A DNA stretch of 64,000 nt. It comes from Alkalimarinus coralli (GTDB taxonomy: Bacteria > Pseudomonadota > Gammaproteobacteria > Pseudomonadales > Oleiphilaceae). How positions within the stretch are numbered: position 1 is the first letter of the stretch; each line of letters opens with the position of its first letter. Below are positions 23,764 to 34,209 of this stretch, piece after piece. The DNA lies in the NCBI RefSeq assembly GCF_023650515.1, contig NZ_CP096016.1, positions 236,001 through 300,000 of the forward strand, written 5' to 3'. The position numbers were made by a program, and so were the translations under genes. The notes beneath the pieces were generated by a model. That model did not search any database. It saw nothing but the letters and a program-made list of their open reading frames with translations, and was not told where the DNA came from.

Positions 23764-25029
23764 CTATATATCAAAACTAGTGCTGAGTTTCTTTTCAGTC
23801 AACGTGTTCTGCAACTTGACGTACTTAGGCAGACCGTTGTGTTGATAAGGAGGGTAGTCTTCACCACGAATAAGTGGTTCCAGGTAACGGCGGCACTCTT
23901 CTGTGATCCCAAACCCGTCATCGGTAATGTAGTGAATAGGCATTTTCTTCTCTTGGTTTGCTACTTGGCTAAGAGGTGCTTCGCCTATTGTCCACTTATA
24001 GTGTTCGCCGGGCTCACGAACGATGATCGGCATTACCGCGTTGCGGCCTTCAATTGCAAACTCTACCGCTGCTTTGCCCATTGCATAGGCCTGGTCTACA
24101 TCGGTTGCTGAGGATATGTGACGTGCTGCGCGCTGAAGGTAGTCAGCAACGGCCCAGTGGTATTTGTAGCCTAACGCTTGTTTAACCATATTAGCCAGCG
24201 CTGGTGCAACGCCGCCTAGCTGGGTGTGTCCAAAGGCGTCTTTCTGGCCTGCATCAGCAACGAAACGACCATCTTCATATTGTGCGCCTTCTGAAGCAAC
24301 GACCACACAGTAACCATACTTTTTAACACTGTCTTCGACGCGAGCGAGAAACTTCTCGCGGTCAAATGCAACTTCAGGAAACAGAATGATATGTGGTGCT
24401 TCGGTAGAATTTTTACCTGCCAAACCACCGGCTGCTGCAATCCAGCCTGCGTGACGCCCCATCACTTCGAGGATAAACACCTTGGTTGATGACTCGCACA
24501 TGGATGCGATGTCCATGGCGGCTTCCTGCGTTGAAATAGCAACATATTTCGCCACAGAGCCGAAGCCTGGGCAGTTGTCAGTAAAAGGAAGGTCGTTATC
24601 AACTGTTTTTGGCACACCGATACAGGTAATCGGGTAACCCATTTTTTCACTTAGTTGAGACACTTTATACGCTGTATCCTGAGAGTCTCCGCCACCGTTA
24701 TAAAAGAAATAACCAATGTTGTGAGCCTGGAATACTGCGATAAGGCGCTCATACTCGCGCTTGTTTTCTTCGAAGTTTTTCAGCTTGTAGCGGCACGAAC
24801 CGAAGGCGCCACTGGGGGTGTGGCGAAGTGCGGCAATGTCTTCTTTGGTTTCGAGGCTGGTATCAATCAGCTCTTCCCTAAGCGCGCCAATAATTCCATT
24901 TCGCCCAGCGTAAACAGTACCTATTTTATCGCTGTTAGCTCTTGCTGTTTCTATCACTCCGCATGCAGATGCGTTGATAACAGCAGTTACACCGCCAGAT
25001 TGTGCATAAAAAGCGTTTTTAATCGACAT
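23764..25029 (-). CDS. pfp: PPi-type 6-phosphofructokinase
   Basis: 421 residues from ATG 25029; a TTG five codons earlier is less likely. The family core is clear: AQSGGVTAVINASACG (start), NGGGDSQDTA (111-120) and PKTVDNDLPFTDNCPGFGS (140-158). Lys141 in PKTVDND, where ATP-dependent PfkA has PGTIDND, marks the pyrophosphate-using group. MGRHAGW and QRAARHISS are further signatures. It interconverts fructose 6-phosphate and fructose 1,6-bisphosphate with PPi, and the reaction is reversible, so it may serve glycolysis or gluconeogenesis. Stand-alone with a strong terminator. Confidence 0.9.
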   Translation of the reverse strand: MSIKNAFYAQSGGVTAVINASACGVIETARANSDKIGTVYAGRNGIIGALREELIDTSLETKEDIAALRHTPSGAFGSCRYKLKNFEENKREYERLIAVFQAHNIGYFFYNGGGDSQDTAYKVSQLSEKMGYPITCIGVPKTVDNDLPFTDNCPGFGSVAKYVAISTQEAAMDIASMCESSTKVFILEVMGRHAGWIAAAGGLAGKNSTEAPHIILFPEVAFDREKFLARVEDSVKKYGYCVVVASEGAQYEDGRFVADAGQKDAFGHTQLGGVAPALANMVKQALGYKYHWAVADYLQRAARHISSATDVDQAYAMGKAAVEFAIEGRNAVMPIIVREPGEHYKWTIGEAPLSQVANQEKKMPIHYITDDGFGITEECRRYLEPLIRGEDYPPYQHNGLPKYVKLQNTLTEKKLSTSFDI

Positions 25030-25192
25030 TACCTTGTGCCTCAAGAAGTATTAATTTCTGGCGCGCATGATACGTGAATTTAATTAATTTTTCATGACTC
25101 GATTTGACAAATTTGGTGAAATCAGAGGTTTTATATGTCACTTTTTATGAGGACTAAACCATCTTAGGGGGGATCAGCATTCAAGGTAGTAG

Positions 25193-25222
25193 AAAAGGTG
25201 TGGGCTGACTGCCACACACCTT
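25193..25222 (-). terminator. Intrinsic terminator after traF-like gene
   Basis: The sequence AAGGTGTG(T)GGC pairs with GCCCACACCTT around AGTCA, followed on the coding strand by TTTT; it starts 23 bp past the stop. Confidence 0.7.
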
Positions 25223-25244
25223 GGGGTGGAAGGTATACCGTTAA

Positions 25245-26468
25245 CTAAAAGGTGAATCCAAGCTCAGCCGCCGCCCCGTACTCGGTGCTGCTGACCAAAC
25301 CTGAGAGTTCGATATGGACGCCGAAGGGCGAAAACCCCAAACCTGCGGTAAACTGGCTGTCTTCCTCAACCCCTTCGCTATCGTTGCTGCTGCCGAAGTT
25401 ATGCCTCGCACCGACTCTGAACTGTGCAATGTCTAACAGGTCAAACTCGCCGCCAACAGAGATGAACTGATTATCATCTTCAAAGCCAAATGCTTTGTTC
25501 TCCGTTAAATCCAGGTCGGCGGTCAGTGTGAATATGTCTCGAGTGTATGCCACACCCACGGTGGCTTGCGGGTCTACATCCATGCTAATACCGGATTTTG
25601 TTTTAAGATCTGTAGGTATTACGTTTCGAATTGAAAGCCCTGTAATCCACTGGCCGCTGTCACCAAACTGGTATGCGACCCCTAGATCCATATTGAATGT
25701 GCTGTCGTCTGTTTCGTGCTCGTCTGAATCAAAGTCGTCATCATCGAACGATGCAACGTTGGCGGTATATTCGTAAGTAACGAGAGAGACGTATTTTGGC
25801 GAAACCCCCAGGGTAAGAGTATTGCCATTATGATCCAGTGCTGTCGCAAAACTAACACCGAATTCACTAATACCGCCAACGATAGCGGTGGCTTCTGATG
25901 TCAACGTGGTTTCGTCTATTTCTGCTGGAGGTGCACCTGCTGCTACGGCATCGAGATAGGCGATATCACTATCACTGATATCACCTCTTACGGTGCCTTT
26001 TACCGTGCCATCAAGAAATACACTAACGGCAAGTGCTTTGTTGGGAATCACCAGTGCGGCACCGACTCCTACGTCTACTCTTGCGGTGTCGTTATCGAGC
26101 TTTGAGAACTGACTGCTCAACCTTGCGGCAGATGCCTGAACGGCTGCCTGGTCGTTACGATTTACTGCTGAGTTAAATGTGTCAATTTCGTTCTGAATGT
26201 CATCAATTTGGTCAACAACGTCTTCATCATCGGCGAACTTTGCATTCGCTGAGGGGAGTATAAGGCCAAACCCATCGTGTTTCTCTTCGTGTTTGATGGC
26301 CAGTAATGCGGGGTTGTGAAAGCTGGCACTGGCAGGGCTAGATGAGGCCACACCGGTTCCACCCATCGCAAATGATCGTGCGTCTTGAAATGGGTTTGGT
26401 GCAGCAACAGCAGTCTGACTGCCAGCAACAATAACGCCAATAGAAAGAGCCAGGAGTTTTTGCTTCAT
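25245..26468 (-). CDS. TraF-like/FadL-superfamily outer-membrane protein
   Basis: 407 residues. Signal peptide 1-23 (cleavage VAA/PN). NPFQDARSFAMGGTGVASSS (25-44) is the hallmark start of conjugal-transfer-TraF-like (TraF_2) outer-membrane proteins, which resemble FadL-type barrels with an N-terminal hatch. An acidic helical segment (about 80-130) contains DEDVVDQIDDIQNEIDTFN, and the rest is barrel strands ending with an aromatic residue (ELGFTF). Despite the name, these proteins in marine Gammaproteobacteria are not linked to conjugation, and their cargo is unknown. The gene is single and ends with a clear terminator. Confidence 0.8.
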   Translation of the reverse strand: MKQKLLALSIGVIVAGSQTAVAAPNPFQDARSFAMGGTGVASSSPASASFHNPALLAIKHEEKHDGFGLILPSANAKFADDEDVVDQIDDIQNEIDTFNSAVNRNDQAAVQASAARLSSQFSKLDNDTARVDVGVGAALVIPNKALAVSVFLDGTVKGTVRGDISDSDIAYLDAVAAGAPPAEIDETTLTSEATAIVGGISEFGVSFATALDHNGNTLTLGVSPKYVSLVTYEYTANVASFDDDDFDSDEHETDDSTFNMDLGVAYQFGDSGQWITGLSIRNVIPTDLKTKSGISMDVDPQATVGVAYTRDIFTLTADLDLTENKAFGFEDDNQFISVGGEFDLLDIAQFRVGARHNFGSSNDSEGVEEDSQFTAGLGFSPFGVHIELSGLVSSTEYGAAAELGFTF

Positions 26469-26710
26469 GATGATTAGATCCTTCAGGTTTATTCACAATA
26501 AGATATGTGGATTAACAGCGACAACGTACTGGCCGTTGCAGGCTGAGTACTGATGACATTAGTTTCAGTCTAGGAGAATATTGCGTATTTTGAAGCAGCA
26601 AAATGTGTTTGTTTGTAGCGAATCTTAGATGATTGATAAGCTCACTGAGCGGCAATAAAGTTCCCTTGTTCTGAGGATGGGGTTTGCCGTATAAAAATTA
26701 ATAAACTGAT
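26469..26710. other. Intergenic region upstream of flagellar module
   Basis: This lies between the traF-like start and the sigma-28 promoter. It should hold the traF-like promoter. Apart from that I see no gene or repeat here. Confidence 0.5.
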
Positions 26711-26737
26711 TAAAGGAATCGCTAAGCGGGCCGATAA
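26711..26737 (+). promoter_or_regulatory. Sigma-28 (FliA) promoter, full consensus
   Basis: TAAA (26711-26714) and GCCGATAA (26730-26737) are separated by exactly 15 bp, identical to the enterobacterial FliA consensus. The start of transcription should be about 26744, 30 bp upstream of the small lipoprotein ATG. Confidence 0.85.
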
Positions 26738-26773
26738 GTGCTGTGAAAGAGACAATAAACAAAAGGATCGTAT

Positions 26774-26938
26774 ATGAAAAAAATGATTAAAATTCTTGCG
26801 TTAGGGACTATAACTTTGATTGTTTCGGGATGTGCTCATCATCATAGCCACCGTTCGTCAGCCTGCGGGTGCTGCAATCAACAAATGCAGATTCCTGTTG
26901 CTGTTCAGCCTATTAGACTTGTTCCCCAGCCGTACTAA
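26774..26938 (+). CDS. Small Cys/His-rich lipoprotein under a sigma-28 promoter
   Basis: 54 residues (too short for most gene callers). The RBS AAAGGA lies before ATG 26774. Lipobox IVSGC with lipidated Cys21, then HHHSH, CGCC and the tail IPVAVQPIRLVPQPY. The mature part, about 34 residues, has clustered His and Cys that could bind a metal. Directly downstream is flgP, whose N-terminus has a similar layout (SGCSH, an acidic/aromatic stretch, CNTCGA, PQLAVQP), suggesting a shared origin. Flagellar membership is inferred from the promoter; function unknown. Confidence 0.75.
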   Translation: MKKMIKILALGTITLIVSGCAHHHSHRSSACGCCNQQMQIPVAVQPIRLVPQPY

Positions 26939-26948
26939 CTCCTTTATG

Positions 26949-26972
26949 TATTGACCAATAATATTGCCCCGA
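26949..26972 (+). terminator. Weak hairpin between lipoprotein and flgP
   Basis: GCCCC and GGGGC surround GATATTAAA near 26957-26985, with no T-run. It may reduce read-through into flgP, so this is an attenuator candidate only. Confidence 0.3.
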
Positions 26973-27156
26973 TATTAAAGGGGCGATGTTGTTAAAGCTA
27001 ACAAGAAATCTCTTAATTGCCGCTTTTGTATCGAATATCTTTGGCAATATATACCGGATAATAAGTAATTTTGCTGGCATTAATCGTTTGTTAATTAGGT
27101 TTGGCATGTATTTTTCATGATGAAAGAAATATTACTGTGTCTATCAGGAGTTTGGC

Positions 27157-27777
27157 ATGACAAGAAAAATTATAGTAGTAACGATATCTATTCTTTTAAG
27201 CGGGTGCTCCCATTATTGGTGGGGCGGGTACCACGACTATGATGATTGCAATACTTGCGGTGCTAACGCTGTGCCCCAACTCGCCGTTCAGCCATCTATG
27301 ACGGCTCAAACTCCAGCGCCGAAACAGGAAAGCTTGCAGCCAATAGTGATAAGAGTTACTGGATATGGTGCGTTGGATACAACACGGAAAGCAGCCTCTG
27401 AAAGAAAGTTGTTAATGGCAATGCGAGCATCTAAATTGGATGCCTATAGGGCATTGGCTGAAAGGGTTTATGGTACACAAGTATTTGGCTCATCAAAGGT
27501 TCAGGACATTGTTATGGAAAATGACCAATTAAGAACAATTGTTGACTCAAATATTAGAGGGGCAAAAGTAATTTCGGTGAATCGCCTGAAGGGGGGAGGG
27601 TATGAAACCATTGTAGAAATGGTGATATCACCCGGTTTGCGCAGATGTCTTGCAAATGGACCATCGTATAATAATGTTTGTTCTATGTTGGTGGGTTCAG
27701 CAGATCATAGCATGACTGAGAAACGGCCTGTTACAGACTCTGCCGATCATGGTGGTGGTTTGTTTTATCTACACTAA
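27157..27777 (+). CDS. flgP: Flagellar outer-membrane lipoprotein FlgP (LPP20 family)
   Basis: 206 residues. Lipobox LLSGC (Cys17), followed by aromatic/acidic and Cys-containing residues (HYWWGGYHDYDDCNTCG), then a disordered Gln/Pro-rich linker, and the LPP20 domain at about 64-170 (VTGYGALD, KLDAYRALAERVYGTQVFGS). The tail has Cys178 and Cys185-like residues and ends at LFYLH. FlgP forms a disc under the outer membrane around the flagellar motor in Vibrio and Campylobacter. It is followed 37 bp later by flgT. The mature part is longer than typical Vibrio FlgP (about 145 residues), largely from the N-terminal extension. Confidence 0.85.
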   Translation: MTRKIIVVTISILLSGCSHYWWGGYHDYDDCNTCGANAVPQLAVQPSMTAQTPAPKQESLQPIVIRVTGYGALDTTRKAASERKLLMAMRASKLDAYRALAERVYGTQVFGSSKVQDIVMENDQLRTIVDSNIRGAKVISVNRLKGGGYETIVEMVISPGLRRCLANGPSYNNVCSMLVGSADHSMTEKRPVTDSADHGGGLFYLH

Positions 27778-27814
27778 ACAGCGGGCTGCGAGCTGAGGTT
27801 GGAGGGGCAGAGTG

Positions 27815-29017
27815 ATGAAACTAGAGGGCATGTTAGTATTTTTTCTGGCCTTGGTTCTAGGTGCCGGCACAGCAAGTGCCGAGTGGGTAACCGTTACAGC
27901 CGATGCGGAGATACTTAACAATGATGTTGAGACAGCAAAGCTCAGCGCCTATAAAAATGCGCTCCGCGAAGCGTCATTACTTGTAGGGGCTACGGTCAAC
28001 AGTAATACGGCAGTAACTAATGGAGTTTTGCAAAGTGATTCGGTCGGTGTTAGTTCCGCAGCAAGAATAAAACGGGCTAATATTATTGAAGAAAAAGTAA
28101 CTGAGAAAAAGGTGGTTGTTACTGTTTCTGCTGATGTTGTTTCGGAGAGCGTCTGTCCGAGTGGAGCTGCTAACGGTTATAAAAAAGAGGTTGCTGTCTT
28201 GGGGTTTTCTGTTCAATATCCGCGGCAGGCTATTTTAGGTGCTTTGAATGATATTGACCGCAAGCTCCCAAGTTATTTGAAAGAGCGGTTGCATGAGCGT
28301 GACAACCTGGTGGTTCACGAGTCTAGCCAATACCAGTTGTATGATGAACCGATCAATGCGCCAACGACCGAAACCAGCCAGCGCACGTTAACTAAAGTTG
28401 TGCAATATGCCCAGCAGATGGGGGTTCAGTTTATTGTCTCTGGCATTGTAAGAGATTTGTCGGTTGCTGATGAGACTGCGTTTGGAAATTCAGTATGGAG
28501 TGCGACGAAGCGTTTTTGGCGGATGGCCGATCGAAATAGGCGGTTTGTCGTGGACGTTTTTATTCACGATGGTTTTAGCGGTTCAATTGTATTTCAGAAA
28601 AGCTACAGGCTAACGGATGTATGGAATGCAGACCCCAATGAGTCAACTGGATTTGCATCGGCTTCATTTTTTAAGACGCCTTATGGCAAGGGGGTTGCGG
28701 AGTTGCTTGAGGGGGCTGCCCAGGAAGTGAACGGCGCGATGCGTTGCCAGCCATTCATGGCTAGAATTACCCGGACTGACGGTAAAACAGTGCACTTTGC
28801 TTCAGGGGCCGCCGCAGGAATACGGCCGGGCGATCAATTGGCGGTTTATAGAACCTATCGCTTTTATGATGCTGATTTGCTGGCGGGTACTGAGTTGACG
28901 AATGCCAAAGCCGCTTTAACGGTGTCTCAGGTGCACCCATCATTTTCAACGGGAACGATCTCTGTTGATAGTGGAAGGCTGAATATTCAGCCGGATGATT
29001 TGTTGATTGCCTGGTAG
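27815..29017 (+). CDS. flgT: Flagellar assembly protein FlgT (H-ring)
   Basis: 400 residues from ATG 27815, seven bases after GGAGGGG; a GTG codon immediately before it is in frame too. Signal peptide ends ASA/EW. The N-terminal domain (WVTVTADAEILNNDVETAKL) is typical, followed by a middle domain (QFIVSGIVRDLSVADE) and a C-terminal SH3-like domain (AAGIRPGDQLAVYRTY) as in Vibrio FlgT. FlgT forms the H ring of the sheathed/polar flagellum base in the periplasm and, with FlgO and FlgP, stabilises the motor. No flgO is next to it here. Confidence 0.88.
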   Translation: MKLEGMLVFFLALVLGAGTASAEWVTVTADAEILNNDVETAKLSAYKNALREASLLVGATVNSNTAVTNGVLQSDSVGVSSAARIKRANIIEEKVTEKKVVVTVSADVVSESVCPSGAANGYKKEVAVLGFSVQYPRQAILGALNDIDRKLPSYLKERLHERDNLVVHESSQYQLYDEPINAPTTETSQRTLTKVVQYAQQMGVQFIVSGIVRDLSVADETAFGNSVWSATKRFWRMADRNRRFVVDVFIHDGFSGSIVFQKSYRLTDVWNADPNESTGFASASFFKTPYGKGVAELLEGAAQEVNGAMRCQPFMARITRTDGKTVHFASGAAAGIRPGDQLAVYRTYRFYDADLLAGTELTNAKAALTVSQVHPSFSTGTISVDSGRLNIQPDDLLIAW

Positions 29018-29115
29018 GCGACTTGCCTGAATGAAAATCTTGGTTTCGTTGGGCTCCGTGCAGCGCGATGAGAGGGGGCAACGCGATGAGAACGGCATTA
29101 AATACTGGGTATCTG

Positions 29116-29210
29116 GTAGCCGTGATGAAAGGAGGTACGACTGGAATCAAGGGATGTAGCTGACCGTGCTGCGGAGCTCAGAAGTGACAAATAAACCCTG
29201 ATTCCGCTTC
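29116..29210. repeat. Repeat-module fragments left of the IS element
   Basis: 29116-29152 matches the right half of the 89-bp module in the suf operon (reversed), including ATGAAAGGAGG and ACTGGAATCAAGG. After a 43-bp linker, 29196-29210 (CCCTGATTCCGCTTC) begins the next module, which is cut by the IS and continues at 30918. Confidence 0.8.
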
Positions 29211-30917
29211 GAGGCTGTGAAAGTATCCATAGGCTCCCCGCTGTATAATATCGTCGCCTAACGACTTCGAAGATATAAGAAAATGGGAAGACAATACAAG
29301 AAAACACACTCCCGCGATCAAGGGGATTTGTTTCCGAGCCATATGGATGACTACGTGCATGAGAGGCATCCCATCAGAGCCCTTGATGCCTATGTTGAAT
29401 GTTTAGACTTAGGAAAGCTCGGCTATCAACATACCTTAGAAAACAAGGTTAATAGCGGGCAGCCTGCCTACCCTCCCGGTGCGTTACTCAAGCTTTACCT
29501 CTACGGATATCTAAACCGCATTAAGTCGAGTCGTCGGTTGGAACAAGAGTGCCACCGTAATATAGAGGTGATGTGGTTAGTTCAAGGGCTTAAGCCAAGC
29601 TATAAGACGATCGCTAATTTTCGCAGCCAAAACCGGCGTGCGATTCGGGAGACTCATAAAGAGTTTATTTTATTCTGCAAGAAACTTTCGTTGTTTGGAG
29701 GCCAGTGCATTGCTATTGACGGCAGTTTCTTTAAAGGAAGCGCGAGCCGCAAGAGCTTTACGACCACCACAGGTCTCAAGAAGAAGCTCAAAAAGCTAGA
29801 GGCGCATATCGAGCAATGGCAGAACGAGCTAGATCAGCAAGATGCGCAGGAAAAGGAAGAAGAAAACAAGCCCAGTGATATTGAACTGGAAAAAGTGCTT
29901 CAGCAACTCGAAGACTGGAAAAAAGAAAAACAAGATAAAGAGAGCGAATTAAAAAGGTTAGAAAAATCTAAAAAAACACAAGAGAGCAGTACAGACAAAG
30001 ATGCCCGTTTACTGAACAAAGGAACTCAAAAGGTATCCGGCTACAGCGTACAGATAGCAGTAGATAACAAGCATCACTTGATCGTTTGCGAAGAAGTCAC
30101 AACGGAGCCAAACGACCTTAAACAATTGCACCCAATGTCGCTAAAAGCAAAGAAAATACTGAATTCAGATGAGTTAGAAGTGCTTGCTGATGCGGGCTAT
30201 TACAGCGGGGCGCATATTGCTAAGTGTGTAAAAGATAAGATAACACCTTATGTTCCCAAGCCTAAAACGGGGGGTAAAGGGAAAAAGGGAAGGTACACAA
30301 AAGACCAGTTCATATATGATGCGAGGAAAAATCATTATGTGTGCCCTGCAGGAGAGTCATTAAACCAACGAGGGTCGCCCCGCACACAGAACGGACAAGT
30401 ATTTCATCGCTTCAGTGCATCAGAAACAGTCTGTAAAAGCTGCCCCCAAAAAGCAAGCTGTCTTGGGGAGAAAATACCTTGCCGAGTCGTGTGGCGAAGT
30501 GAGAATGCAGACCTGCTCACAGCTCATCAAGAACGAATGAAGGTAAGCAAAGGAAAAATGCGCGAGCGAAGTACACTCGTTGAGCACCCATTTGGCACGA
30601 TGAAATCTAGAGCAGGTTGGAGCCACTTCCTGCTAAGAGGCCAAGAGAAGGTAGCGGCTGAGTTTAGTTTAATGGCGTTATGTTATAATCTCACACGTGC
30701 ACTTAATGTGTTGGGGTTCGACAGGCTCCTTGAGGAGATAAAAAATAAAGCTCTGTTTCGCCTTAATAGAAGGAGCCCAGAGCTATATTTAAAGGCCTAT
30801 AAGTATTACCTGTTTCTACAGACAATAATTATAAAGGCCGTTGTAATGACGCCAGATTCGCTTCGAGTTCGTTTTGAAGTCAAAGAATCTCTTGCTTGTT
30901 AATACTTTCACAGCCTC
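29211..30917. mobile_element. IS1182-family insertion sequence, complete
   Basis: 1707 bp. The 16-bp terminal inverted repeats are identical: GAGGCTGTGAAAGTAT (29211-29226) and its reverse complement at 30902-30917. A 3-bp direct repeat TTC (29208-29210, 30918-30920) flanks it. Joined after removing one TTC, the flanks rebuild the palindromic repeat module otherwise seen at 31534-31964, giving a direct view of the target site. Confidence 0.9.
29283..30902 (+). CDS. IS1182-family DDE transposase
   Basis: 539 residues. N-terminal DUF772-like domain (HPIRALDAYVECL and SSRRLEQECHRNIEVMWL, about 30-100). DDE core: first Asp in CIAIDGSFFKG (about 145), second in LADAGYYSG (about 306), and Glu in STLVEHPFGTMKS (about 436). 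A charged coiled-coil insertion (about 165-245) and a four-Cys zinc-ribbon-like segment (VCPAG... CKSCPQKASC, about 357-395) are present. The stop overlaps the right terminal repeat by one base. The frame is intact, so the element is probably still active. Confidence 0.93.
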   Translation: MGRQYKKTHSRDQGDLFPSHMDDYVHERHPIRALDAYVECLDLGKLGYQHTLENKVNSGQPAYPPGALLKLYLYGYLNRIKSSRRLEQECHRNIEVMWLVQGLKPSYKTIANFRSQNRRAIRETHKEFILFCKKLSLFGGQCIAIDGSFFKGSASRKSFTTTTGLKKKLKKLEAHIEQWQNELDQQDAQEKEEENKPSDIELEKVLQQLEDWKKEKQDKESELKRLEKSKKTQESSTDKDARLLNKGTQKVSGYSVQIAVDNKHHLIVCEEVTTEPNDLKQLHPMSLKAKKILNSDELEVLADAGYYSGAHIAKCVKDKITPYVPKPKTGGKGKKGRYTKDQFIYDARKNHYVCPAGESLNQRGSPRTQNGQVFHRFSASETVCKSCPQKASCLGEKIPCRVVWRSENADLLTAHQERMKVSKGKMRERSTLVEHPFGTMKSRAGWSHFLLRGQEKVAAEFSLMALCYNLTRALNVLGFDRLLEEIKNKALFRLNRRSPELYLKAYKYYLFLQTIIIKAVVMTPDSLRVRFEVKESLAC

Positions 30918-30936
30918 TTCGCTGCATCAAGGCTAC
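30918..30936. repeat. Repeat-module fragment right of the IS element
   Basis: TTCGCTGCATCAAGGCTAC continues the module broken by the IS (compare the reverse complement of module ends at 31534-31964). Beyond it the match fades, so this copy is degenerate. Confidence 0.75.
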
Positions 30937-31019
30937 GTTTACAGGGCTGTAATTGTGGCCTTTATGGGAAGGGTTGGATGAATTAGTTTAGCGCTTCTAT
31001 CAGCGACTTAATGTATGGC

Positions 31020-31478
31020 TTATACCATCTGCTCAGCAATACGCTGAACTTTTTTTACCATTGAACGCAACCCGTTACCGCGGGTAGGGCTAACATGTCG
31101 AATAAGATCCATTTTCTCAAATAGTCCTTCTATATCAACGGCAAGTAGTTCGGCGGGTGTTTTGGCATTCATGGCGGCTAAAACAACGGCAGCCAAGCCT
31201 CTGACTATCAGCGCATCGCTTTCGATCAGAAGGTATAACTTGCCGCTTTTCTCATCGAGATAATGAATGAGCCAAACCTGGCTTTGGCAGCCATGAACAT
31301 AGTTCTCTTCGATTTTTTCACTTTCAGGAAACTCAGGAAGCTTTTTGCCCAGATCAATAATATAGGCATACCGTTCTTCCCAATCATCTAAAAACTCAAA
31401 CGTATCGAGTATTTCATCAGTATTGATTGGGCCACCAAAATCATTCTGAGTAAATTGAGCGTGTGTGTTCGTGGTCAT
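31020..31478 (-). CDS. sufE: SufE, sulfur acceptor for SufS
   Basis: 152 residues. The catalytic Cys64 is in VHGCQSQVW, the SufE signature; the N-terminal DDWEERYAYIIDLGKKLPEF and the following ENYVHGC are all standard. The C-terminal VSPTRGNGLRSM is conserved as well. It takes persulfide sulfur from SufS Cys and hands it to SufB. It is the last gene of the leftward suf operon, but four tandem repeats lie between it and sufT, so its expression may differ from that of the upstream genes. Confidence 0.95.
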   Translation of the reverse strand: MTTNTHAQFTQNDFGGPINTDEILDTFEFLDDWEERYAYIIDLGKKLPEFPESEKIEENYVHGCQSQVWLIHYLDEKSGKLYLLIESDALIVRGLAAVVLAAMNAKTPAELLAVDIEGLFEKMDLIRHVSPTRGNGLRSMVKKVQRIAEQMV

Positions 31479-31533
31479 CTAATCGTCCAATCTGTTTAAT
31501 CTGTTCCAGGTTTATCGTACTGCCAGCGGCTTT

Positions 31534-31964
31534 CCTTGATTCCAGTCGTGCCTCCTTTCATCACGGCTACGGTGCGCTTATCGCTGTTTTTGTAGCCTTG
31601 ATGCAGCGAAGCGGAATCAGGGTTTTTGTGTTCAATTGTGACCATTTCCTTGATTCCAGTCGTGCCTCCTTTCATCACGGCTACGATGCGCTTATCGCTG
31701 TTTTTGTAGCCTTGATGCAGCGAAGCGGAATCAGGGTTTTTGTGTTCAATTGTGACCATTTCCTTGATTCCAGTCGTGCCTCCTTTCATCACGGCTACGA
31801 TGCGCTTATCGCTGTTTTTGTAGCCTTGATGCAGCGAAGCGGAATCAGGGTTTTTGTGTTCAATTGTGACCATTTCCTTGATTCCAGTCGTGCCTCCTTT
31901 CATCACGGCTACGATGCGCTTATCGCTGTTTTTGTAGCCTTGATGCAGCGAAGCGGAATCAGGG
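31534..31964. repeat. Four tandem 114-bp hairpin repeat units in the suf operon
   Basis: Four 89-bp modules (31534-31622, 31648-31736, 31762-31850, 31876-31964) with identical 25-bp linkers between them. The modules are identical except one base in the first (GGTGCG for GATGCG). Each has inverted ends (CCTTGATTCC / GGAATCAGGG) and an internal stem (ATCACGGCTAC / GTAGCCTTGAT), predicting a long hairpin in RNA. They are close to a wider bacterial stem-loop family with GTAGCC(C)GGATGCAGCGAAG. The unit is a multiple of 3, so open frames read through on both strands, but there is no gene. Confidence 0.9.
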
Positions 31965-31979
31965 ATGACGGGCCGCTTT

Positions 31980-32519
31980 CTAGAGCATGCCTAGTTCGAG
32001 CTTTGCCTCATCGGTTAGCATATCATTGCTCCAGGGTGGATCAAAAACCAAATCCACGATGACATGATCAACATTAGGAACCTGCTGAACCTTTGATCTT
32101 ACGTCTTCGACGATCACTGGCCCCATGCCGCATCCAGCGGAGGTAAGCGTCATGTCAATTTTGATGACATTGCCTTTGTCGGTTTTATTTTCAACCGAAC
32201 AGTTATAGATCAGACCCAAATCTACCACATTGACTGGGATTTCAGGGTCGAAACACTGTCTTAATGCTTCCCATACCTGGTTTTCGTTGATAGTGCCATC
32301 TGCCGGGGTTTCGAAGTTCTCAAACTTGATCTCTTTGCCCAGCGCATCGGCATCCTTCCCTTCAATTCGGGCGAGATTACCGTTCACCGCGACGCTGAAC
32401 GTACCACCTAACGCTTGTGTGATCGTTACAAAGGTATCTTTAGGGATCATGATCTCGGTGCCAGCCGGCACTAATCTCGCTTCACAATCGCGTTTGGTTA
32501 ATACAACCTCTCTTTCCAT
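31980..32519 (-). CDS. sufT: SufT, Fe-S cluster maturation protein (DUF59)
   Basis: 179 residues. N-terminal domain (VLTKRDCEARLVPAGTEIMI, then QALGGTFSVAVNG) followed by a DUF59/MIP18 domain (about 85-179). Typical elements are DPEIPVNVVDLGLIYN and the Cys-bearing TSAGCGMGPVIVEDV, then VDLVFDPPWSNDML. SufT helps mature Fe-S proteins under high demand. It sits between the A-type carrier gene (12 bp upstream) and the repeat array. The start ATG is 32519. Confidence 0.92.
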   Translation of the reverse strand: MEREVVLTKRDCEARLVPAGTEIMIPKDTFVTITQALGGTFSVAVNGNLARIEGKDADALGKEIKFENFETPADGTINENQVWEALRQCFDPEIPVNVVDLGLIYNCSVENKTDKGNVIKIDMTLTSAGCGMGPVIVEDVRSKVQQVPNVDHVIVDLVFDPPWSNDMLTDEAKLELGML

Positions 32520-32531
32520 CAGATCGAAACC

Positions 32532-32903
32532 TCAGACTACGGTAAAGCTTTCGCCACAACCGCATTCGGCTGTGGCGTTAGGGTTATTGAAATGGAGCAC
32601 GGAGTTTAAGCCCTGAGTAACAAAGTCGATCTCGGTACCATTTAATATAGGCAGGTGCTTTTTGCTGACAAATAGTTTTACGTCGTCTGATGGCGTAAAA
32701 ATCTGGTCATTGTCTTGCTGTTCAAGCGCTTCTTCTTTACTGACCAGTGATGTCTCATACATGTAGCCTGAGCAACCGCTGGTCTCAAGTCTTAGGCGGA
32801 TGCCCTGGCAGTCAGGCTTTTTGGCTATCTCTTTGCGGATGTGCTTGATGGCAGATTCTGTCATCGTGATATTCACATCAGGTGTATATTGTTCGGTGCT
32901 CAT
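32532..32903 (-). CDS. sufA: A-type Fe-S carrier (SufA family)
   Basis: 123 residues. The three conserved cysteines are Cys44 in TSGCSGYMYE, and Cys114 and Cys116 in ECGCGESF. A-type carriers bind and deliver Fe-S clusters to apoproteins. Adjacent to sufS (50-bp gap) and sufT (12-bp gap). ErpA and IscA share the motif, so the SufA name rests mainly on operon position. Cytosolic. Confidence 0.9.
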   Translation of the reverse strand: MSTEQYTPDVNITMTESAIKHIRKEIAKKPDCQGIRLRLETSGCSGYMYETSLVSKEEALEQQDNDQIFTPSDDVKLFVSKKHLPILNGTEIDFVTQGLNSVLHFNNPNATAECGCGESFTVV

Positions 32904-32952
32904 TGTAATTCCTCAACTCAACGTCTGGTGAAGCGCTTTTTACCTATTATGA

Positions 32953-34209
32953 TTAGGCAAAAAGACGTTGGATTTTTTGCAACCCTTCAAAAAACTTTTC
33001 AACTTCGGCCTGGGTGTTGTAGAAGGCGAATGACGCTCTTGCTGTTCCCGGTAAGCCATAGAAGTCCATGAGCGGCATGGCGCAATGGTGCCCAGTGCGG
33101 ATGGCAATGCCTTGCTGGTCTAACAACGTGCCAATATCACTTGGGTGAAGTCCGTCGATCATAAACGACATAACAGGAACCTTGTTAGATGCGTTGCCTA
33201 TAACACGCATCCCTGGAACGCTGCTGACCATTGAGTTGGCATAGTTCAATAGATTGTTTTCATAAAGCTCTATGGAGTGGCGATCAAATGCGGTGAAATA
33301 CTCAATCGCTTTGGCCAGACCTATTGCTTCGCTGATGGGCGGGGTGCCTGCCTCAAATTTATAAGGAAGTTCGTTATAGGTTGTTTTCTCGAAAGTCACT
33401 CTTTCGATCATCTCACCTCCGCCCTGGTAGGGGGGAAGTGCGTTTAGTTTCTCTTCCTTGCCGTAAAGAACGCCAATTCCCGTAGGGCCGAATAGCTTGT
33501 GAGATGAAAACACGTAAAAATCACAGTCCAAGGCTTGAACGTCAACCAGAAAGTGAGGAACCGCCTGCGCGCCATCAATCAGCGTTGTTGCGCCGACCGA
33601 CTGGGCTTTATCGATAATCTCTTTAACTGGGTTAATCGTGCCCAAAACGTTGGATACATGTGTGACAGCAACCACTTTGGTGCGTTCGTTCAGTAGCTGA
33701 TCAAACGCGCCTTCTAACAGTTCGCCCGACTCATTGATTTCAATAACTTTGAGTGTCGCGCCAGTGCGTTCCGCCAGCATTTGCCATGGGACGATATTCG
33801 CATGGTGTTCCATGCGGCTGACAATAATCTCATCGCCCGCTTTAAGAGATGAAGTCAGCCCATTGGCAACAAGGTTGATGGCTTCGGTGGTTCCGCCAGT
33901 CCAGATGATCTCTTTGGTACTTTTTGCGTTGAGAAAACCTCTAACGGTTTCTCGGGCTCCTTCAAAGGCTGCAGTGGCTCTATCGCCCAAAGTGTGCGCA
34001 CCGCGGTGGACATTCGAATTGTCATGGCAGTAGTAGTCGCTGATCGACTGTATAACCGCATCGGGTTTTTGTGCACTGGCTGCATTGTCGAGATAGATAA
34101 GCGGTTTGCCGTTCACATCCTGATTTAATATAGGAAAGGCGTTGCGCGCATTATTGATGTCGAAAATCACTTTGCTGTTGCCACTTGTATCTACTGCCTG
34201 CTGATTCAT
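32953..34209 (-). CDS. sufS: SufS cysteine desulfurase
   Basis: 418 residues. PLP lysine K238 in SSHKLFGPTGIG and catalytic Cys376 in RTGHHCAMP, the class II (SufS/CsdA) pattern. An early conserved IYLDNAASAQKPD and THVSNVLG are present. It removes sulfur from cysteine for cluster assembly, with SufE as acceptor. It starts 6 bp after the sufD stop on the leftward strand, so translation is probably coupled. Confidence 0.96.
   Translation of the reverse strand: MNQQAVDTSGNSKVIFDINNARNAFPILNQDVNGKPLIYLDNAASAQKPDAVIQSISDYYCHDNSNVHRGAHTLGDRATAAFEGARETVRGFLNAKSTKEIIWTGGTTEAINLVANGLTSSLKAGDEIIVSRMEHHANIVPWQMLAERTGATLKVIEINESGELLEGAFDQLLNERTKVVAVTHVSNVLGTINPVKEIIDKAQSVGATTLIDGAQAVPHFLVDVQALDCDFYVFSSHKLFGPTGIGVLYGKEEKLNALPPYQGGGEMIERVTFEKTTYNELPYKFEAGTPPISEAIGLAKAIEYFTAFDRHSIELYENNLLNYANSMVSSVPGMRVIGNASNKVPVMSFMIDGLHPSDIGTLLDQQGIAIRTGHHCAMPLMDFYGLPGTARASFAFYNTQAEVEKFFEGLQKIQRLFA

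Follow-up and report, generated by a model that had tools for sequence, protein, structure and literature searches.

A 54-residue lipoprotein gene with a sigma-28-type promoter before flgP in Alkalimarinus coralli, a candidate accessory part of the flagellar H-ring

We analysed a stretch of 64,000 nucleotides of Alkalimarinus coralli (NZ_CP096016.1, positions 236,001 to 300,000; hereafter the window, whose first letter is position 1) and found a 54-codon lipoprotein gene behind an exact sigma-28 (FliA) type promoter match, next to the H-ring genes flgP and flgT. The gene is well supported as a real, well-formed feature. Next to it, FlgP together with the N-terminal domain of FlgT forms, as judged from comparison with congeners, a changed module, which is the firmest new result. 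Concerning function, the chances seem to us evenly balanced that the product is a late outer-membrane lipoprotein capping or stapling the FlgP/FlgT H-ring. The features concerned are the following:

26711..26737, + strand: sigma-28 (FliA) type promoter TAAA-N15-GCCGATAA; exact pattern match, with one-mismatch sites before flgM and one flagellin
26763..26767, + strand: Shine-Dalgarno sequence AAGGA, 6 nt before the ATG; read from the sequence
26774..26938, + strand: 54-residue lipoprotein gene; 54-codon ATG ORF, no family above cut-off
26957..26993, + strand: 14-bp hairpin, terminator- or attenuator-like; -19.9 kcal/mol, z -4.5
27101..27119, + strand: sigma-54 (-24/-12) type element TTGGCATGTATTTTTCATG before flgP; from the pattern and local alignment to congeners
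27157..27777, + strand: flgP (LPP20 domain), divergent type; from Pfam and identity to congeners
27812..28170, + strand: flgT N-terminal domain, far from the genus type; from Pfam, identity and tree
28171..29017, + strand: flgT middle and C-terminal domains, native to the genus; from Pfam, identity and tree

The lipoprotein gene and its promoter

The ORF carries all that the first-pass annotation had read in it, a good ribosome-binding site, a lipobox and the clusters HHHSH and CGCC. Its signal peptide (residues 1-19) ends in VSG before the lipid-bearing Cys20 and, read from the sequence, is of type II with the lipobox MKKMIKILALGTITLIVSG followed by CA; as a lipobox is present and the residue at +2 is Ala, not Asp, the product is a predicted outer-membrane lipoprotein. 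The mature part, CAHHHSHRSSACGCCNQQMQIPVAVQPIRLVPQPY, has 35 residues, with HHHSH at 22-26 and CGCC at 31-34. When the 688 bp from 26469 to 27156 were shuffled by dinucleotides, a lipoprotein ORF of at least 45 residues with Shine-Dalgarno sequence and ATG appeared on the + strand in 0 of 20,000 shuffles, and therefore the full set of lipoprotein signals goes beyond chance expectation.

Searches of Pfam and NCBIfam gave no sequence family above cut-off for the peptide. In Pfam, neither the FlgO domain PF17680 (matches at E up to 1) nor the LPP20 (SHS2-like) domain was detected, and no YecR-type match was among the Pfam or NCBIfam hits, these libraries including a YecR-type family model. We had considered the peptide as a hidden FlgO homologue and rejected this for want of a FlgO domain match. 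Sequence comparison with solved structures returned nothing credible (best E 1.3), Rfam gave 0 matches on 25000-33500, and in the open-access literature we found no report of a histidine-rich lipoprotein tied to flagellar flgP. Searching the peptide against its own genome placed FlgP as the second-best match (E 0.059); locus L003 came third.

The site TAAAGGAATCGCTAAGCGGGCCGATAA at 26711-26737 (+), annotated in the first pass as an exact sigma-28 promoter, is indeed exact and is the only such match in the window with spacers of 14-16 allowed; 1 of 100 shuffles of the window contained one. It lies 36 nt before the ATG, the earlier figure of 37 bp being the count to the A itself. Having a consensus promoter at a workable spacing from its ATG, the gene is a candidate member of the sigma-28 (FliA) regulon. 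Genome-wide, the exact pattern has 6 matches versus 2 when it is read backwards, and no recognisable flagellar genes lie downstream of the other five; thus, the pattern alone is not specific and context carries the claim. As for known flagellar genes, flgM (L182, FlgM by Pfam with 70 bits versus a cut-off of 25) has a one-mismatch site 35 nt before its start and one flagellin (L205) has a one-mismatch site 118 nt before the gene, and for the other three of the four flagellin-type genes the 350 nt upstream of the start contain no sigma-28-like site at up to two mismatches. The 54-codon gene is probably expressed together with the flagellum.

We also noted that L205 and the neighbouring flagellin gene L204 are in divergent orientation, one of the pair with a sigma-54-like TGGCAC-N5-ATGC upstream (seen by eye) and the other with the one-mismatch sigma-28-type site. 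Finally, GCCGATAA occurs in two congeners (L017, L019) and was rejected there as a sigma-28 site, having a poor -35 and lying within an inverted repeat GGCA-N-TGCC. This repeat could be an activator site, perhaps a FlrC-type half-site.

Separate promoters and a changed FlgP/FlgT module

The gene had been described as lying directly before flgP-flgT. It is their neighbour, but 218 bp separate the ORF from flgP, with the hairpin and the sigma-54-type site between. A terminator scan called no terminator at 26957-26993, as a T tract is missing. Sigma-54-type elements with at most two mismatches precede flgP in 19 of 30 loci of family f1 versus 36 of 1,200 base-shuffled regions; the loci with the element include all five of the genus and that of genome G154, and such elements are also scattered among other families, so not unique to f1. 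Since flgP keeps its sigma-54-type element and a strong hairpin intervenes, the 54-codon gene is probably a transcription unit of its own. Because of that same element, which the first-pass annotation had missed together with the changed FlgP/FlgT-N module, a single operon transcribed from the sigma-28 site is not our default reading. For V. cholerae, PMC6504787 lists the H-ring genes under class III (sigma-54/FlrC) and the sigma-28 genes under class IV; flgT is reported as FlrC-dependent in Aeromonas (PMC4960245), and PMC3948606 describes a response to FlrA for flgO of V. fischeri but none for flgT. Following the V. cholerae scheme, the two promoter types found here make flgP-flgT look class III and the lipoprotein gene class IV.

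The gene order pfk, traF, flgP, flgT, sufE, sufT, sufS (names by resemblance) is common to the window and four congeners. The traF-flgP spacers of these congeners align with the window up to about 26668; further on, the sigma-54-type element at 27101-27119 was recovered almost in full by local alignment in 2 of 4 and by its pattern in 4 of 4, local hits and pattern being the basis here since the global spacer alignment placed it poorly. Between these two points the window has an additional segment that the congeners lack, and this segment contains both the sigma-28 site and the ORF. No congener (0 of 4) has a counterpart of the peptide. A search of 163 family genomes gave a full match to the window alone, plus matches at E about 0.005 in two more genomes, both interrupted by stop codons. 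On these comparisons, the unit of sigma-28 site and ORF is lineage-specific.

The proteins encoded on both flanks are 72-97% identical to those of the congeners. Window FlgP is only 44-50% identical to congeneric FlgPs versus 76-86% among the congeners themselves. Similarly, over the first 120 alignment columns of FlgT the window shows 21-30% identity versus 40-88% in two congener pairs, and after them window and congeners share 55-100%. The boundary near residue 120 is sharp and agrees with Pfam, which places the N-terminal domain at 24-110 and the middle domain at 118-279. Both proteins were matched by sequence in solved flagellar entries (8z5n, 9yec and others).

Trees of the middle and C-terminal part of FlgT place the window inside the genus (96/91). 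The FlgT-N tree and that of FlgP plus FlgT-N join it to G154 (82/89 and 87/92, respectively, both below the program's star), and FlgP alone leaves it unplaced, with the congeners as nearest rows by path. AU tests of window and genus as one clade were borderline (p 0.096 for FlgP, 0.066 for FlgT-N, 0.057 for both); for FlgP plus FlgT-N minus two long rows p was 0.014, the window then joining another long branch, possibly a false join. The simplest reading is that FlgP and FlgT-N were replaced through recombination; fast divergence of the outer part may be the explanation instead. The outer layer of the H-ring (FlgP, FlgT N-domain and lipoprotein) would appear able to change within one species with the rest of FlgT native, and the change point in FlgT marks where an interface probably lies.

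Some further observations were made around the locus. In each of the five species of the genus, a TraF_2-type gene (PF13729 in the window, at 25245-26468 on the - strand) is transcribed divergently from the flgP locus. An IS1182-family transposase lies between flgT and sufE at 29283-30902 (NCBIfam, 397 bits versus a cut-off of 270), and the four congeneric loci have no room for this element there. Beside sufE, a tandem array at 31531-31964 consists of 3.8 copies of a 114-bp unit with 99% match; a 31-bp piece of this unit is found inverted, with one mismatch, at 29120-29150, on the far side of the IS1182 element.

Small lipoproteins before flgP in other genomes

We surveyed the region upstream of flgP in 150 loci, 139 of them distinct; within the family, the survey covered the best 30 flgP places and a few others, about 100 family genomes being left out. 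Small lipoproteins other than FlgO precede flgP in at least four genomes of the order, each of a different genus: the window, G154, G168 and G210. Four is a lower bound, as the filter missed one G168 lipoprotein that was found by eye. The G154 locus has one such lipoprotein, His/Cys-rich and 97 residues long, and a FlgP with a CxxC tether. G168 and G210, two genera of one family, have two each: a shorter one (57 and 63 residues) that is not His-rich and ends in HC-x-IQPCANY plus one or two aromatic or His residues, and a longer one (171 and 159 residues) with the mature start CEVHHIHHFNK-x-DL-x-GC-x-C. Over aligned codons, the shorter pair is 48% identical and the longer pair 75%, with dN of 0.53 and 0.22, respectively, and dS saturated, and the motifs HC..C and HHIHH..GC.C are kept between the two genomes. 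Given these dN values against saturated dS, the G168 and G210 lipoproteins are very probably real genes under constraint.

In all four genomes, the first lipoprotein gene is preceded at 21-51 nt by a sigma-28-like site that deviates from the pattern at one position at most; its spacer in G154 is 16. In G168 and G210 this first gene is the 57/63-residue one; the His-rich second gene has no sigma-28-like site of its own in G168 and a two-mismatch site in G210.

We asked for homology between these lipoproteins and the window peptide. Against the longer lipoproteins of G210 and G168, 19 and 91 of 10,000 shuffles, respectively, scored as well as the mature peptide, and against that of G154 7,021 of 10,000 did; lengths differ, and homology is not established. 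The longer G210 lipoprotein, searched in 381 genomes of its order, was found in no other family save for one weak match with stops, and the G154 lipoprotein gave eight weak matches (E 0.0004-0.009) besides itself in 163 family genomes. Conservation of the ORF in relatives, on which the first-pass annotation had made its proposal depend, fails within the genus, yet three other genomes have small lipoproteins in the corresponding position, and those of G168 and G210 keep their main His/Cys motifs.

FlgO above the model cut-off is absent from all four lipoprotein genomes and from 18 of 22 tested, so that its absence is common rather than specific; the window genome gave a weak hit only (E 0.001) and none over cut-off. 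Among other flagged ORFs, two (L010, L012) were set aside for lack of a Shine-Dalgarno sequence, one of them also overlapping flgP, and nine lipoproteins of 221-243 residues (L137, L140-L143, L148-L150, L165) were read as FlgO-like, at two (G372, G410) by a FlgO model match and at the rest by resemblance.

A possible H-ring part and its relation to known systems

Residues 17-60 of window FlgP form a Cys/His/Pro-containing lipid tether with CNTC. A structure model of low confidence (mean pLDDT 59, several aligned relatives starting within the gene) predicts disorder for residues 18-57 and a folded part from near 61; because of this confidence, a fold search with the model gave nothing usable. 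The mature peptide aligns with the tether around H..C..C and AVQP, with 191 and 130 of 20,000 shuffles as good, a resemblance that is suggestive rather than decisive. Both have the lipid-Cys, His or aromatic residues, a Cys pair and a Pro/Gln-containing stretch with AVQP, whereas the peptide is without the LPP20/SHS2-like domain that follows in FlgP. In C. jejuni, as described in PMC12222027, the basal disk still assembled but was no longer in register with the P-ring when the N-terminal linker of FlgP was lengthened, which suggests that the tether bridges a gap in which a peptide of similar build could act. The FlgP tethers of G168 and G210 have His and no CxxC, and many FlgPs with tether cysteines (Cys or His in families f26 and f37) have no small lipoprotein neighbour; therefore the pairing is not strict, and a bond need not involve such a lipoprotein.

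Tethers of family f26 (L113-L131, L133, L135) carry C-x-x-[VI]-[AG]-PCNGN in 15 of 17 loci and CTSTSPCVDG in two, with a Cys pair conserved and the rest of the stretch free. In a distant lineage (L102, G853), a FlgP-like frame has a tether starting CAHQHHGHGHGHGHHGQRH, a His-rich membrane linker.

By considering these features, we propose that sigma-28 would transcribe the gene after completion of the hook-basal body, and that signal peptide and lipobox, with Ala at +2, would bring the product to the periplasmic face of the outer membrane. There, the lipid-anchored peptide of 35 residues would have the shape of a FlgP tether lacking the ring-forming domain (lipid-Cys, His cluster, Cys cluster, Pro/Gln tail) and would most likely pack among the FlgP tethers of the H-ring. 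Its three non-lipid cysteines, an odd number, and its His cluster may pair with the CNTC/His tether by disulfide or metal, stapling or capping the ring against the outer membrane. The peptide may have come with, or co-evolved with, the alternative FlgP/FlgT-N type. The flagellar accessory part proposed in the first pass thus stands as a gene for a small lipoprotein that has a sigma-28-type promoter and neighbours H-ring genes, and its flagellar function as what we infer from that setting.

We hold as rather unlikely the wider reading in which small lipoproteins before flgP, often His/Cys-clustered, are recurring, fast-changing H-ring parts of bacteria without FlgO, the window copy being a tether-like staple added after assembly through disulfide or metal and swapped with a matching FlgP and FlgT N-domain as a module. 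It was weighted lower because the sigma-28-like site of G168 and G210 precedes the lipoprotein that is not His-rich.

Among the rivals, the one to be taken most seriously, although we think it unlikely, is a sigma-28-regulated outer-membrane lipoprotein that has nothing to do with the ring and lies beside flgP by chance; a metal-binding peptide of motile cells would be an example. Sigma-28 regulons include non-structural genes, His/Cys clusters suit metal binding, the peptide belongs to no recognised family, and its contact with FlgP is conjectural; on the contrary, lipoproteins before flgP in genomes of four genera, the first behind a sigma-28-like site each time, and the likeness to the FlgP tether argue against chance. 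It is improbable, in our view, that the promoter is real and serves as a late boost for flgP-flgT, with the ORF incidental or a leader controlling passage through the 26957-26993 hairpin. Sigma-28-like sites precede flgP itself in 24 of 25 loci of families f6 and f38 with at most two mismatches (12 of 25 with at most one), and the strong hairpin without a T tract might permit read-through, but flgP has its own sigma-54-type element and the lipoprotein signal set exceeds chance. Least probable is a functionless, decaying partial duplicate of flgP of which only signal peptide and tether are left: the peptide's 30% identity with the N-terminus of FlgP and the own-genome match would fit, but Shine-Dalgarno sequence and lipobox are intact, the exact promoter is of a different class from that of flgP, no FlgP-core-like ORF lies between the peptide gene and flgP, and the G168 and G210 lipoproteins at the same place appear to be under constraint.

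Several known systems bear on the reading of the peptide as an H-ring staple or cap. In Salmonella, yecR is FliA-dependent. Its product is described as a lipoprotein bound outside the L-ring (PMC12222027, PMC11756786), in an organism listed without FlgO, FlgP or FlgT (PMC6375700); both YecR and the window peptide are lipoproteins, but the peptide is without a YecR-type family match above cut-off. The window gene occupies the position of flgO, which in Vibrio encodes an outer-membrane lipoprotein of the H-ring together with flgP as flgOP (PMC3948606), but the peptide is far shorter than FlgO, lacks its domain and looks class IV, the V. cholerae H-ring genes being class III. Annotation easily passes over proteins of this size, and motors still show densities without an assigned protein on their outer-membrane side, such as the one reported beside the LP-rings of C. 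jejuni (PMC12222027); if our reading is true, the 54-residue lipoprotein names a candidate class of ring parts. The working analogy, with no claim of membership, is Helicobacter pylori FapH (HP0838), a lipoprotein whose gene shares an operon with flgP and which PMC11756786 describes as needed for an outer motor ring at the outer membrane, a ring that seems to protect the membrane, and as not required for motility in soft agar. FapH is a protein of about 26 kDa encoded downstream of flgP in Campylobacterota, whereas the window peptide, of 35 mature residues, is encoded upstream with its own sigma-28-type promoter; what the two would share is a flgP-linked lipoprotein contributing to an outer ring.
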